DNA of 64,000 nt from Alphaproteobacteria bacterium. Lineage in GTDB: Bacteria; Pseudomonadota; Alphaproteobacteria; Sphingomonadales; Kordiimonadaceae. Positions within the stretch are counted from its first letter, which is position 1. Every line of letters starts with the position of its first letter. Shown one piece after another: positions 39,742 to 45,351 of the stretch. Position numbers and translations under genes: made by a program. The stretch is from positions 1 to 64,000 of the forward strand of contig JAJFIS010000047.1 of the NCBI GenBank assembly GCA_021774735.1, given 5' to 3'. Under the pieces are notes generated by a model that saw only the letters and a program-made list of their open reading frames with translations, made no database searches and was not told the DNA's origin.

Positions 39742-40404
39742 ATGACATTGTTAACCGTAAACAAAATTATCTTCGACCTTGATGGTACTTTGATCAATAC
39801 CGCCCCTGACCTAACGGCTGCAATGAACCATGTTCTTGTGCAAATTGGTAGGGCAAAGGTGGCGGAAGAACATGTCCGCAATATGGTGGGGTTAGGCGCC
39901 CGAAAAATGCTGGAAACTGGCCTGATGCATACAGGCGGTATGGACGGTCATGACCTAGTGCAATTGCACCAAGCTTTCTTAGTTTATTACGCCGACAATC
40001 TAGCGAATAAATCCGTTCTATATGATGGTTGTTTAGACATGCTTGAAGATTTGAAAAATGCGAACATGCAGCTTGCTATATGTACTAACAAGCCAATTGC
40101 ACTCGCCTTACCTCTTGTTAAAGAATTTGGACTAACTGGTTATTTTCACACAATAAAAGGCGGAGATAGTTTCAAATATAATAAACCTGATGGTCGCCAT
40201 ATCCTAAGCACCGCTATGGAGCTGATGGGCAATGGCAACATTGTCATGATTGGTGATAGTATCAGCGATATAAGTGCTGCCAAAAATGCCAAAGTGCCGT
40301 CCATTGGTGTTAGCTTTGGCTATAGTGACCCCCCTGTGGCGGAGCTTGGGCCAGATTATATGGTTGATACGCTGAATGAGATTCCACCTCTGATGGGGCT
40401 ATAA
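39742..40404 (+). CDS. gph: Phosphoglycolate phosphatase-like HAD hydrolase
   Basis: 220 residues of the HAD superfamily: motif I FDLDGTLINTAPDL, motif II AICTNKP, Lys in FKYNKPDGRH and motif III IGDSISDISAAKNA. The cap sequence MNHVLVQIGRAKVAEEHVRN and the GLGARKML segment match Gph, which removes 2-phosphoglycolate. It is divergent from glmU and convergent with the nucleotidyltransferase gene (7-bp gap). Confidence 0.88.
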   Translation: MTLLTVNKIIFDLDGTLINTAPDLTAAMNHVLVQIGRAKVAEEHVRNMVGLGARKMLETGLMHTGGMDGHDLVQLHQAFLVYYADNLANKSVLYDGCLDMLEDLKNANMQLAICTNKPIALALPLVKEFGLTGYFHTIKGGDSFKYNKPDGRHILSTAMELMGNGNIVMIGDSISDISAAKNAKVPSIGVSFGYSDPPVAELGPDYMVDTLNEIPPLMGL

Positions 40405-40411
40405 TCGCATC

Positions 40412-41455
40412 TCACTTTAAATGCATGCGCTTTACATGCTTTTGCCAATAATGACGCAGAAGGTGCCTCATTGACATTGCGGTAAACTGTGACCGGATAA
40501 GCCAAAATTTCCCCGTAATATAAGACACCGGATTTGATGCCCCTTTAAGGCTAATATTCACCATAAAAGCCATGAAGCTGCGAGAAAATCTAAACCCAAG
40601 CTGGGTATTCAGCTCTGCCATAACTTTATTTGGGGTAACGCTTGGGTAAATTCTCTCTAAAGCATCAAGCGCAATAGCAAGGGGCCATAAAAGCCCAATA
40701 TCCTTAGCCCTGCCAATCAATCTATCCCAATCATTCTGGCTAAGGGCATTCGCGAGATCATAAAACTCGATTAAACTGCGCACAGGTGTTTGAAAATCAC
40801 TCGCGTAAAAACTATGCAGTGCCGAGTGCAAAAATATGTCCACATTGCTGAGGGCAAAAAGGCCTGTCGTTCCCACCTGTTGAAGTTCTTTTATCAGCAT
40901 ATCTGTCGGCACTTGGACAGGACTTGTCAGGGGCGACAGAGCATGGTGAACATCTATAATTGTGTGACGTTTGTTGTGCACCAAAGGGGGCAATTCATGC
41001 ATCAAATTACGGTAATAGGCTTGATCATACGCATTTTTATTCTTTGCGAGCCAACCCCAGCCATTTTCATGCAATATATTTTCTGTTTCCTGCAAATCTT
41101 TGCGTGGCACAAGTATATCCAAATCAGATACGCGCCTGCCTCTTGCTACCCGCATTGAAAGGGCGCTGTAAGCACCCCCTTTAAGCAAAATGACCGGGAA
41201 GGATACTGCACTGAACAATCGTGCTATCTCAAAGATCTCGTAGGATAAAACAGCCGCTTCATAGGTTGCCATACTCTGGCTAAACTCATATTTAAAGCCG
41301 AAAACACTGTGACTGGTTATTTGACACTCACCATCAAACCTTGCCAAGACATGTCGTGGCTCGCACCATTCAATAAATTTATTGAGCCTTGCCTCATCCA
41401 TAGACGGAAGAAACCCATCTGACACCCATTTCAAATATTCCACCACTTCGGTCAT
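40412..41455 (-). CDS. Nucleotidyltransferase family protein (NTP_transf_5-like) of the HprK-A gene set
   Basis: 347 residues. The middle contains LLKGGAYSALSMRVARGRRV then SDLDILVPRKD, the G-S/D-x-D pattern of pol-beta-type nucleotidyltransferases as found in the uncharacterised PF14907-like family (the conserved 'lLKG...y....R...DiDlLv'). Further conserved points are HHALSP and ALHSF. It overlaps the HprK-like gene by 4 bp (ATGA). Such proteins recur beside HprK-related kinase and PqqD-like genes in exosortase-bearing proteobacteria; the transferred group and acceptor are unknown. Confidence 0.8.
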   Translation of the reverse strand: MTEVVEYLKWVSDGFLPSMDEARLNKFIEWCEPRHVLARFDGECQITSHSVFGFKYEFSQSMATYEAAVLSYEIFEIARLFSAVSFPVILLKGGAYSALSMRVARGRRVSDLDILVPRKDLQETENILHENGWGWLAKNKNAYDQAYYRNLMHELPPLVHNKRHTIIDVHHALSPLTSPVQVPTDMLIKELQQVGTTGLFALSNVDIFLHSALHSFYASDFQTPVRSLIEFYDLANALSQNDWDRLIGRAKDIGLLWPLAIALDALERIYPSVTPNKVMAELNTQLGFRFSRSFMAFMVNISLKGASNPVSYITGKFWLIRSQFTAMSMRHLLRHYWQKHVKRMHLK

Positions 41456-42375
41456 GGGAGGTCCCCCATCTCTGTCGCGATCTCTTCAACCAATTTTACA
41501 CCGCTTGCCAGATCAGGATAGCGGATATCAAATGCTTTGATCTTGCTACCCATGCTGGTTAGAGCATCAAAAGCTCGCTCCCCCATCAGCTCATAATTAC
41601 TTGATGATAAAATTAGCTTCATTACCGCATCGGCATTGGTATGTGAAATTCGGTCGGCGGTCGCCCCAGGTGAATAGAATGGAAAAATAACTGCCCTTGG
41701 AATTTTATGGTTGGAAATTCCAGCAATCGCGGCATCATTGGGGGGCAAATAACCAAGGCGCCCTTTGGGTGTACCATCTAGCTTTATCGATACACATCCA
41801 ACACCGCCAAGTTTGTCAATGATTTCAACTGACTCGTTCTTAAGTGAAATTGGTCGTGGGTAAGGAACCACCATACCAGTGGCAGGGTCAAGCAAGCCAA
41901 ATTCATCGGATAGATGTTGATACCCTGCGAGTACCAAACCGGCTGTCATCGTGCTTTTCCCGCTGCCCGATTGCGCAGGGAATAAATAGCTGCCCTCCCC
42001 AATGCCAATGGAGGCCGCATGAAAAGTGGTAAAACTGGCATTCTTCAACGCTACTTGTAAATTCAAGCCCATCTCTAATGCCAATGCGGCTTGTATTGCG
42101 GGCAGAGGCTGCATCAATTTGTCAAAACCAACATCAGGATATGCTTGACGGCGAATATGTCGGCGGAAAAAATTAGGTGCGCTAACTCCAGTATCAAAAT
42201 GTGATGGTCTTTCATCATCGATATGCTGAAAGGCCCCATATAATTTTGAAACTGCTTTTTCTATCTCTGGCATTGAACTGCGGATGCGTGTTTGAAATGG
42301 CCCAAGCTGGACTTTCAAGCCCTGCCCACGCAAAAATTTCCTCAAAGCTTGTCTGGAAAGTGCATTAACTTTCAT
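41452..42375 (-). CDS. HprK-related kinase A
   Basis: 307 residues from the ATG at 42375. A P-loop YLFPAQSGSGKSTMTAGLVL is followed by LSDEFGLLDPATGMVVPYPR-type elements, as in the C-terminal half of HPr kinase/phosphorylase, but the N-terminal domain and the HPr-kinase signature for bifunctional activity are missing. The family (HprK-related kinase A) is found with a small PqqD-like protein and a nucleotidyltransferase, and usually lacks a linked HPr. Its stop overlaps the start of the nucleotidyltransferase by 4 bp. The substrate is unknown; the neighbouring Tat-signal protein is a candidate. Confidence 0.82.
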   Translation of the reverse strand: MKVNALSRQALRKFLRGQGLKVQLGPFQTRIRSSMPEIEKAVSKLYGAFQHIDDERPSHFDTGVSAPNFFRRHIRRQAYPDVGFDKLMQPLPAIQAALALEMGLNLQVALKNASFTTFHAASIGIGEGSYLFPAQSGSGKSTMTAGLVLAGYQHLSDEFGLLDPATGMVVPYPRPISLKNESVEIIDKLGGVGCVSIKLDGTPKGRLGYLPPNDAAIAGISNHKIPRAVIFPFYSPGATADRISHTNADAVMKLILSSSNYELMGERAFDALTSMGSKIKAFDIRYPDLASGVKLVEEIATEMGDLP

Positions 42376-42407
42376 TGTAGGCAACCCAAATCAAGCGGTG
42401 GGCATTG

Positions 42408-42680
42408 TCACTTTGATATTTGAACAAGGCCACAGGCTTCCAGTTCTGAAACAGCCCGTTCAGCCATCTCTGGAGCACATTCTTCCCCACTTAACCCTAG
42501 TCGTTCAAGTGTTATTTGATGTAATTCTTCTATTTTCAGTGATGTCTTGCTTAAGGCGATCAAAACTTCATGGGAATAAAAATTCAAGAAATGGGTTTTG
42601 CCCGAAAGGCGGTTGAAAACAATATATACATCTTCAATCTCTTGAATTTTAAAATGTTTTTGATCCGCAATATAGTACAT
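42408..42680 (-). CDS. PqqD-like peptide chaperone of the HprK-A system
   Basis: 90 residues: IQEIEDVYIVFNRLSGKTHF followed by LNFYSHEVLIALSKTSLKIEE with a winged-helix shape, and the acidic C-terminal helix PEMAERAVSELEACGLVQI. This is the PqqD fold, known to bind precursor peptides for modifying enzymes in RiPP systems. The ATG at 42680 (AAAAGGG upstream) is preferred over a TTG two codons earlier. It sits between the Tat-signal gene and the kinase gene in one operon. Confidence 0.8.
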   Translation of the reverse strand: MYYIADQKHFKIQEIEDVYIVFNRLSGKTHFLNFYSHEVLIALSKTSLKIEELHQITLERLGLSGEECAPEMAERAVSELEACGLVQISK

Positions 42681-42701
42681 AAGCAAAAACCCTTTTGCTT
42701 A

Positions 42702-43223
42702 TTACGAATCACCATGTCCGAAAGACGTAAACGATACGACGCAGGATACGCCAGGCAAATTCAAATCCATGCTCAATGTATTTTGTACCACTTCCCAATA
42801 AGCTTGCTGGCCATAGGTGGCGCTACCATCACCATATTCCTGTGCATTAAAGGGTGTAATGTCATCACTATAATAAAAGCCCTCTGGCACCGAAGTGGTA
42901 AAGTCTATTCCTTCTTTCACCTTATCAATTGCATCATTCACGTCCTTATCATCATCGGACATTTCATCTTTTCTAATTCTATCGATCGCATCTTGGTCAC
43001 TAAGTTCCAAATACCACCCCTGGCCAGAACCATCAGAATAAATGACGTAAAAGCTTGGCGGCATAACTGTACAGGTCGTAGAATGTAATACCCCTGAAGC
43101 CGAGGCTTTAGCCGTAATGACCATTGGTAAGCTGACGGCACCTAGTTTCAAAAGAGTGCGCCGTGATTCAAGTTTTGATTCATCATGCTGCATACTGGTA
43201 ACTTTCTTTTCAAGATCGCTCAT
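42702..43223 (-). CDS. Tat-signal exported protein, candidate substrate of the HprK-A/PqqD system
   Basis: 173 residues from the ATG of SDLEKKVTSMQHDESKLESR. A twin-arginine signal (SRRTLLKLGAVSLPMVITAK, RR at 21-22) ends near ASA (40-42). The mature region begins GVLHSTTCTVMPPSFYVIYS and includes a charged helix rich in Asp and Lys (MSDDDKDVNDAIDKVKEG) and a second Cys near the C-terminus (GVSCVVSF), so a disulfide is possible. I know no family for the mature part. It is first in an operon with the PqqD-like protein, HprK-like kinase and nucleotidyltransferase and has a sigma-54-like promoter upstream; export of a folded, perhaps modified, protein would fit. Confidence 0.65.
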   Translation of the reverse strand: MSDLEKKVTSMQHDESKLESRRTLLKLGAVSLPMVITAKASASGVLHSTTCTVMPPSFYVIYSDGSGQGWYLELSDQDAIDRIRKDEMSDDDKDVNDAIDKVKEGIDFTTSVPEGFYYSDDITPFNAQEYGDGSATYGQQAYWEVVQNTLSMDLNLPGVSCVVSFTSFGHGDS

Positions 43224-43964: not shown

Positions 43965-44489
43965 ATGTTAAAAAATAACGAGCGCGAAAAAGAGAGAATG
44001 TCTATGCGCGAATCTGTGTTTTTGTGGGTAGGTGGCGCAGTATTTGGGTGGGCCCTATTAATGGTGTCTGTTTATAATGTGGTACGATTTGATGATCCAA
44101 CACAAGTGGGTCCGCAAACAATTGCAGAGGCAGAAGCCGAACGATTGAATGAAATTCTTCCTGCTGCTGGTACCATGCCAGAGAGCCAATTTGAGACAGA
44201 AGAAATTATCATCACGCCAGAAGATGTGGATACAGAAGAAGATTCTGGTGAACAGCCCATGGACGAGGAAACAGATGATGATCCAGATGCAAATACTTCC
44301 GGTTTAAATGCTTTATCTCCTGCAGCTGGGAATATGTCATCTGACAGTGCTTTCACTATGGATGAAATAATCATAACCCCATCACAGGCAGAAAGCTTTA
44401 ATGCTCTTCTACCGAATGCCGGACAGCCCATGTCAGACAGTGCTTTTACGATGGATGAAATAATCATTACACCTGCTGATGCTGGCTAG
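43965..44489 (+). CDS. Membrane-anchored protein with three EIIITP repeats, unknown function
   Basis: 174 residues. After a short charged N-terminus there is one membrane segment (about 18-40, VFLWVGGAVFGWALLMVSVY). The rest is acidic and mostly disordered in composition and contains three copies of a unit that opens with (L/F)N-x-(I/L)-x-P-x-A-G and ends with (E/D)EIIITP: 61-85, 114-139 and 145-170. The last two copies share SDSAFTMDEIIITP exactly. No family is recognised. AGAGG precedes the ATG, a sigma-54-like promoter lies upstream and a terminator follows, so it is a single-gene transcript beside the exosortase locus. The repeats could be a docking or modification site; this is inference. 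Confidence 0.75.
   Translation: MLKNNEREKERMSMRESVFLWVGGAVFGWALLMVSVYNVVRFDDPTQVGPQTIAEAEAERLNEILPAAGTMPESQFETEEIIITPEDVDTEEDSGEQPMDEETDDDPDANTSGLNALSPAAGNMSSDSAFTMDEIIITPSQAESFNALLPNAGQPMSDSAFTMDEIIITPADAG
44145..44476 (+). repeat. Three in-frame repeats in the EIIITP protein gene
   Basis: The coding units starting at LNEILPAAG, LNALSPAAG and FNALLPNAG are about 75-80 nt each. Units two and three are close to identical around GACAGTGCTTT...ATGGATGAAATAATCAT, showing recent internal duplication; unit one is more diverged and separated by an acidic spacer. Confidence 0.8.
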
Positions 44490-44577: not shown

Positions 44578-45351
44578 CTATTTCTTTAGATCTTTGAGCA
44601 TGCGAGAAACAAACTTAATAGGAATAGCATATGATATGCCCGTGGCCTCGCCCAATCCATTCTCTCGGGTTTTTCGAATGAAAGCGGCGTTCAATACTGC
44701 CACAACCATTCCTGTATCTGGTTCATAAATGGGACTTCCGCTGTTCCCAGGATAGGATGTTATATCAAGCTGATAAATAATAAATCGTTCTCGGCGAATT
44801 ATTGCTGGTGTTAAATAACGAGCATTTTGTTGCGGAATGACATTCGGCGCATGCGCTGAAATAATCCCACGGTGGGTAACGGGATATAAGCCAAGCACCT
44901 GCCCTAACGGGAATCCGGTCATGGCAATATCGGAACCTTCAGCAATAGTATAAGCGCTTGAAGCTAGCCTAAGAGGCTTTAAGCTATTTGCCTCTTCAAT
45001 ACGCAGCAACGCCAAATCATACAGCGGCGAGGAACTTGCTATTGTTGCTTCATATATCTTTGCATTTTCGCCGCGCCCTGTGAGGATTGCAAGCCGCCCT
45101 GTTGTTGCGCCTTGTTCAAAGGCCTCAATCACATGGAAATTTGTCGCAATAAACGAACCATCGCCCACCACAAAACCAGTACCAACAATTTTAGCCTTGG
45201 GCTGCGCTAGAGGGTCATAATTAACTATAGCAACGATGCTTCCTCTAATTTCAGCTAATGTTTGTGGCAAATCATTGGCTTGAGCAGCAATCCCCATCCA
45301 GAAAAAACAAATTGCTATGATTAATAAACGGCTAAAATTAAGCATTACCAT
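44578..45351 (-). CDS. Trypsin-like serine protease, secreted, in the exosortase operon
   Basis: 257 residues. A signal peptide (FSRLLIIAICFFWMGIAAQA) is followed by a single chymotrypsin-fold domain with the triad visible: His73 in ATNFHVIEAF, Asp112 in PLYDLALLRI and Ser204 in SYPGNSGSPIY. There is no PDZ domain, so it differs from HtrA/DegP. Its start overlaps the end of the amidotransferase gene, making it the last gene of the operon. It could process exported proteins of the system; the target is unknown. Confidence 0.82.
   Translation of the reverse strand: MVMLNFSRLLIIAICFFWMGIAAQANDLPQTLAEIRGSIVAIVNYDPLAQPKAKIVGTGFVVGDGSFIATNFHVIEAFEQGATTGRLAILTGRGENAKIYEATIASSSPLYDLALLRIEEANSLKPLRLASSAYTIAEGSDIAMTGFPLGQVLGLYPVTHRGIISAHAPNVIPQQNARYLTPAIIRRERFIIYQLDITSYPGNSGSPIYEPDTGMVVAVLNAAFIRKTRENGLGEATGISYAIPIKFVSRMLKDLKK

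Follow-up and report, generated by a model that had tools for sequence, protein, structure and literature searches.

In nearly every genome that we compared, the operon encoding a PqqD-like chaperone and an HprK-related kinase begins with a gene for a protein carrying a twin-arginine (Tat) signal, which makes that gene a constant partner of the pqqD-hprK pair. The sequence features that these partners share make it very probable that the Tat protein is the substrate of the set. We propose, at a rough probability of 0.55 for the whole model, that the PqqD-like protein recognises the signal, the kinase phosphorylates a serine in a conserved motif, an NTP_transf_5 protein decorates the phosphate, and the Tat system exports the product. 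The window, that is, the whole 64,000-nucleotide stretch of Kordiimonadaceae DNA that we analysed, has the following relevant features:

43223-42702, minus strand: tat, Tat-signal partner protein and proposed substrate, 173 aa
43095..43166, minus strand: Tat signal, residues 20-43 (SRRTLLKLGAVSLPMVITAKASAS), member of the P-x3-[TS]-[LI] signal family
42729..42755, minus strand: motif PGVSCVVSF, residues 157-165, proposed modification site
42680-42408, minus strand: pqqD, PqqD-like peptide chaperone, TIGR04353 (HPr-rel-A system), 90 aa
42375-41452, minus strand: hprK, HprK-related kinase A, TIGR04352, 307 aa
41455-40412, minus strand: ntp, NTP_transf_5 nucleotidyltransferase-like protein (PF14907), 347 aa
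45338..57939, minus strand: XrtA/PEP-CTERM exopolysaccharide locus, context outside the operon, with a TIGR03108 amidotransferase, XrtA (TIGR03109), a TIGR03087 glycosyltransferase and others

The four genes tat, pqqD, hprK and ntp run in one direction with short gaps, 21 nt between tat and pqqD and 32 nt between pqqD and hprK (23 nt if the alternative TTG start of hprK is used). The coordinates bear out the four tightly packed genes described in the first-pass annotation, and the ATGA that it had seen shared by two of them is where the end of hprK overlaps the beginning of ntp. That annotation had also described HprK-related kinase A, a PqqD-like protein and an NTP_transf_5 protein as a recurring trio, and all three products score above curated cut-offs: 49.2 bits for the pqqD product against TIGR04353 (cut-off 35), 225.5 bits for the kinase against TIGR04352 (cut-off 200), and 123.2 bits (E 1.8e-35) for the ntp product against PF14907 (gathering cut-off 31.2). 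NCBIfam groups the TIGR04352 kinase and the TIGR04353 PqqD family chaperone as the "HPr-rel-A" set and assigns no function to it. By these cut-offs the window's pqqD, hprK and ntp all qualify for that set, taken together with PF14907, but NCBIfam release 20.0 and Pfam hold no family for a Tat-exported partner, which the window operon has; the window Tat protein matched no family in either collection. The open-access literature yielded no report linking HPr-rel-A with Tat or exosortase. Two other assignments were rejected, as the NCBIfam WgkC system gave only a weak sub-threshold match to the window PqqD (E 0.0087), and NF050068, whose accession neighbours that of WgkC, is unrelated.

We followed the linkage of the Tat gene to the set at 152 loci, which represent the alpha-, beta- and gammaproteobacteria as well as one other lineage. 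These came from own-family genomes, six more alphaproteobacteria, 80 named genomes of the three classes (two of which repeat own-family loci, while a third is a contig from the own family), plus 40 genomes from a phylum sample. Within the family, 26 of 29 genomes have a full-length kinase (25 above the cut-off and one at 197.7 against 200 bits), and in 26/26 of these pqqD is immediately preceded by a gene for a Tat-signal protein. Across all loci a Tat-signal gene is present at 142/152, nearly always in that same position. Matches to a Tat-signal HMM within 2.3 kb upstream of hprK account for 139 of the 152, and three further Tat genes were found at L115 and L199, by an independent regular-expression signal test, and at L177, where the gene is downstream. 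Among 2,205 control frames the HMM matched one, which is L177's own Tat gene. Because the HMM was built from the 152 loci themselves, we examined a fresh held-out sample of gammaproteobacteria, in which a Tat-signal gene stands upstream of pqqD at 17/17 new kinase loci; one of these genes scored only 6.3 bits by HMM, yet it reads KRRLTKVGLLTSTVVASVSGKSAFA. The operon arrangement, recurring at this frequency, is not chance. Whether a Tat-signal protein precedes the set elsewhere had been left by the first-pass annotation as a point to check, and the answer is that it does so almost universally, in three proteobacterial classes.

Three loci carry two tandem copies of the Tat gene. The set at L115 is in a record titled as a Planctomycetaceae MAG, which may reflect contamination or transfer. 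Ten loci gave no Tat gene; two of them (L089 and L167) have little upstream sequence, and at the other eight (L125, L181, L186, L187, L190, L191, L208 and L216) none was found despite enough upstream sequence. Several of these eight also have no detected pqqD. The kinases of L181, L187, L190 and L191 score far above the TIGR04352 cut-off, with neither pqqD nor a Tat gene detected alongside, and these four loci belong to a lineage mostly without exosortase.

The window Tat protein begins with SRRTLLK, a hydrophobic stretch and ASA, a twin-arginine signal with an AxA site (SRRTLLKLGAVSLPMVITAKASA). The two arginines are kept throughout its relatives, and TatC is encoded in the same genome (E 9.5e-69). 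The consensus of the signals, RRRLLKGGAAAAPVVLTLASGAALA, includes in its hydrophobic part the element P-x3-[TS]-[LI], with P in 65%, T or S in 92% and L or I in 83%. The median signal score of held-out members is 31.5 bits, whereas none of the 16 E. coli Tat signals that served as controls exceeds 12.4. RRE domains are readers of leader sequences (PMC12710340), and such a special signal would fit recognition by the PqqD-like protein.

Behind the signal the partners are very dissimilar, and their mature parts form 28 sequence clusters by single linkage. Two serine motifs recur in them: an N-motif, C-x(1-3)-S-x3-S, near the mature N-end, and a C-motif near the C-end, with a strict core [ST]-[CA]-phi-x-S-[FIL] (PGVSCVVSF in the window), counted as [STGAN]-[CA]-[WFLIYVA]-x-S-[FILVY] in the last 45 residues. 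One or the other is present in 125 of 144 partner proteins, where shuffled sequences would give 5.8, a comparison in which the motifs were defined post hoc on the same sequences; the remaining 19 have neither motif as defined. Because of this, the held-out proteins matter for the count, and 17/17 of them have a motif: the 13 of the G class all have the N-motif, and the other four have the C-motif, three in its strict form and one (L229) only in the loose form. A single universal motif was not reached; there are two terminal motifs instead, and the S-x3-S spacing is common to most clusters.

In the G class, the largest cluster with 45 members, the invariant residues are two arginines, C51, S55, S59 and one Leu. 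Those of the K class (Kordiimonadaceae) include S44, C48 and a G-x-S-C-x-x-S near the C-end, and in the alignment columns of the window protein's relatives G158, S160, C161 and S164 are invariant. Beyond the Tat signal, the invariant residues are mainly Cys, Ser and Gly within the motif regions, which, with the signal arginines, answers the earlier question of what is conserved in the Tat protein. The window protein is a K-class member, a shortened copy that lacks the Asp-rich middle of its relatives. In other Kordiimonadaceae partners (L032-L056) the conserved ends flank a long, hypervariable middle rich in Asp and Gly, which the window copy has lost along with two of the four conserved cysteines. 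The window protein ends in Ser, but we rejected this residue as a lasso-like phosphosite, because its relatives end differently and the internal SCxxS is conserved.

Most mature parts are 70-270 aa. AlphaFold predicts a mostly well-folded protein for both the G class (mean pLDDT 83.5) and the K class (81.5). The motif lies in the last helix of the K-class model, whereas in the G-class model it precedes the folded domain, within an N-terminal extension of low confidence. Foldseek searches with both class models against solved structures returned nothing at E <0.001; on structural re-alignment the K-class model gave Z 3.2 with a C-type lectin, which we do not take as evidence either way, and the G-class model gave nothing. 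At the other extreme, the L229 partner (about 778-1011) has a mature part of only ~12 residues ending in CISCNASLI, essentially the motif alone, and is a candidate for a natural minimal substrate. Because such dissimilar partners share the signal and the serine motifs, "substrate" fits them much better than "bystander". As read from sequence, the partner, its signal signature and the serine motif are new here.

The kinase has a P-loop (GSGKS in the window) and conserved H119, K140, D157 and E158. Its profile matches the HprK structures 1jb1, 2qmh and 1ko7 around the P-loop over ~45 residues, with the His, Lys and first Asp aligned. The likeness to HprK/P stops at the second catalytic Asp: the P-loop and His-Lys-Asp-Asp set is incomplete, as Asp-Glu is found in 151/151 kinases read, where HprK and the lasso kinases have Asp-Asp. 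HPr is also absent from the window operon.

The closest functional precedent comes from lasso peptides. The HprK-like kinases PadeK and PsmK phosphorylate their C-terminal Ser, and PsmN, annotated as a nucleotidyltransferase, puts hexoses on the phosphoserine, as in pseudomycoidin (PMC9266682). PqqD-like, HprK-like and NTP_transf_5 proteins recur as a trio among lasso clusters (PMC7533575). Lasso tailoring (PadeK/ThcoK, PsmK, PsmN and the B1 RRE) has the three kinds of protein in common with the window operon, and the serine modified there stands at a chain end (PMC9266682; PMC7533575). The substrate here would differ, however, in being a Tat-signalled, mostly folded protein. There is no lasso precursor in the window, and the amidotransferase nearby is an XrtA-type enzyme rather than a lasso cyclase: as the nearest cyclase candidate, it scores 981 bits against TIGR03108, above the cut-off, and only 251 against a lasso cyclase cut-off of 525.

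We therefore propose that the operon is a protein-modifying system acting on its own first gene product. The PqqD-like protein, of the RiPP-recognition-element type, would bind the signal/leader region in the cytoplasm; the HprK-like kinase would then phosphorylate the serine of the motif (in the window protein S160, S164 or both). NTP_transf_5, where present, would extend the phosphate, a sugar being the likeliest addition by comparison with PsmN and pseudomycoidin and a nucleotide the alternative, and Tat would export the folded, modified protein. We lean slightly towards phosphorylation of the motif serine by the kinase; the sugar step, argued by analogy, is tentative and somewhat less likely than not. 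At nine or more loci where tat, pqqD and hprK stand together, no NTP_transf_5 gene is adjacent, so a sugar or nucleotide step would not be general. The first-pass annotation had read the first gene product as a substrate that is phosphorylated or nucleotidylated and exported folded; the substrate part of this is supported by the near-universal linkage, the shared signal and serine motifs and the lasso analogy (PMC9266682), while its nucleotidylated version fares less well.

In that version NTP_transf_5 would transfer AMP or UMP to the Tat protein, and the HprK-like protein would be regulatory or phosphate-transferring rather than the main serine kinase. The invariant KG and D-x-D of the NTP_transf_5 members are typical of nucleotidyltransferases, and for pseudomycoidin a nucleotidylated intermediate is still considered possible (PMC9266682). 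The loci without an adjacent NTP_transf_5, however, make the kinase the more constant enzyme, and the in vivo precedent yields phosphate plus hexose, so we regard nucleotidylation as unlikely.

The genomic context raises another possibility. Many sets lie inside XrtA-type exopolysaccharide loci. In the window, the XrtA locus lies upstream of the operon, past an AT-rich gap of 740 bp, a small divergent gene and a trypsin-like protease. XrtA accompanies the kinase in 26/26 own-family genomes and is in 0/3 of those lacking the kinase, which have a distant exosortase only, far below the XrtA cut-off; in the class sample it is in 7/7 kinase genomes against about 18/240 others, and among the held-out gammaproteobacteria an exosortase is in 15/17 kinase genomes against 3/18 kinase-negative ones among those listed. 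The association is looser across the phylum sample, with the kinase in 25/35 XrtA genomes and XrtA in 25/61 kinase genomes; because the genomes are related, none of these counts are independent. The kinase genomes without XrtA come mainly from one lineage in which only 7/34 genomes have any exosortase, which rules out a universal dependence on exosortase; the neighbours of the set in that lineage include relatives of the XrtA-type amidotransferase and glycosyltransferase. The XrtA/PEP-CTERM system adjoins the window's set and that of many relatives, and co-occurs with it in the alpha- and gammaproteobacterial samples, but the set is absent from some XrtA genomes and found in a lineage mostly without exosortase. 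No PEP-CTERM was seen in the Tat partner proteins that we examined.

Given this association, the Tat protein could be exported unmodified and serve the exopolysaccharide system as an effector, scaffold or sensor, while the co-expressed enzymes act on another molecule such as a glycan or a PEP-CTERM protein. Many sequence families sharing a signal and a serine motif would be unexpected, however, unless a common enzyme reads both. A PqqD-like chaperone implies a peptide substrate, and the L229 partner has little beyond signal and motif, so this explanation seems to us rather improbable.

Several neighbours deserve mention. The small gene at 43965-44489 (plus strand) encodes a membrane-anchored acidic protein with near-repeats LP.AG.M..S.F...EIIITP; it has no Pfam match and no counterpart near the operons of relatives. 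The secreted trypsin-like protease (Trypsin_2/HtrA-type) at 44578-45351 (minus strand), between the operon and the XrtA locus, has homologues of 37-44% identity within ~4 kb of the kinase at 24 other loci, mostly of the G class, and may for this reason be a functional neighbour. On the other side, at 39742-40404 (plus strand), a HAD phosphatase gene converges on the operon, with glmU and glmS after it; the phosphatase also neighbours the set in most Kordiimonadaceae and in several sphingomonads, which is probably conserved synteny.

The set may also be RiPP-like: it has a PqqD-like protein, a conserved leader-like signal and a serine motif, the putative site of modification. It resembles the DUF2063 RRE/DUF2282 precursor systems in combining an RRE-type protein with a signal-peptide-bearing precursor, but those precursors use Sec where the window partner uses Tat, and the tailoring enzymes differ (PMC12710340). 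A secreted RiPP-like natural product, a bacteriocin or signal with the Tat signal as leader and a bioactive mature part under diversifying selection, would suit the constant leader, the variable mature parts, the RRE-like protein with its tailoring enzymes and the very short L229 mature part, yet it is improbable given the length of most mature parts, the predicted folds of the two that were modelled, the linkage to exopolysaccharide genes, and the fact that we noticed neither an immunity gene nor a dedicated exporter beside the sets.

Returning to the proposed modification of the Tat protein, in many hosts its product would probably serve the adjacent exopolysaccharide/exosortase surface system. 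The fullest form of this idea is speculative and, on balance, doubtful: the set would be a cytoplasmic machine that adds a phosphate-linked group, probably a sugar phosphate, to a serine tag that many dissimilar proteins carry at one end, the Tat signal would double as the PqqD-like protein's leader, and the exported phosphoglycoprotein would prime, anchor or cap an XrtA-type exopolysaccharide.

NCBIfam names the kinase and chaperone in many proteobacteria without a substrate, and a constant partner with a candidate serine site makes their function testable. If the model is true, leader-guided serine phosphorylation and glycosylation, known from lasso peptides, would extend to folded, Tat-exported proteins, and these proteins may be a link within XrtA-type exopolysaccharide systems.
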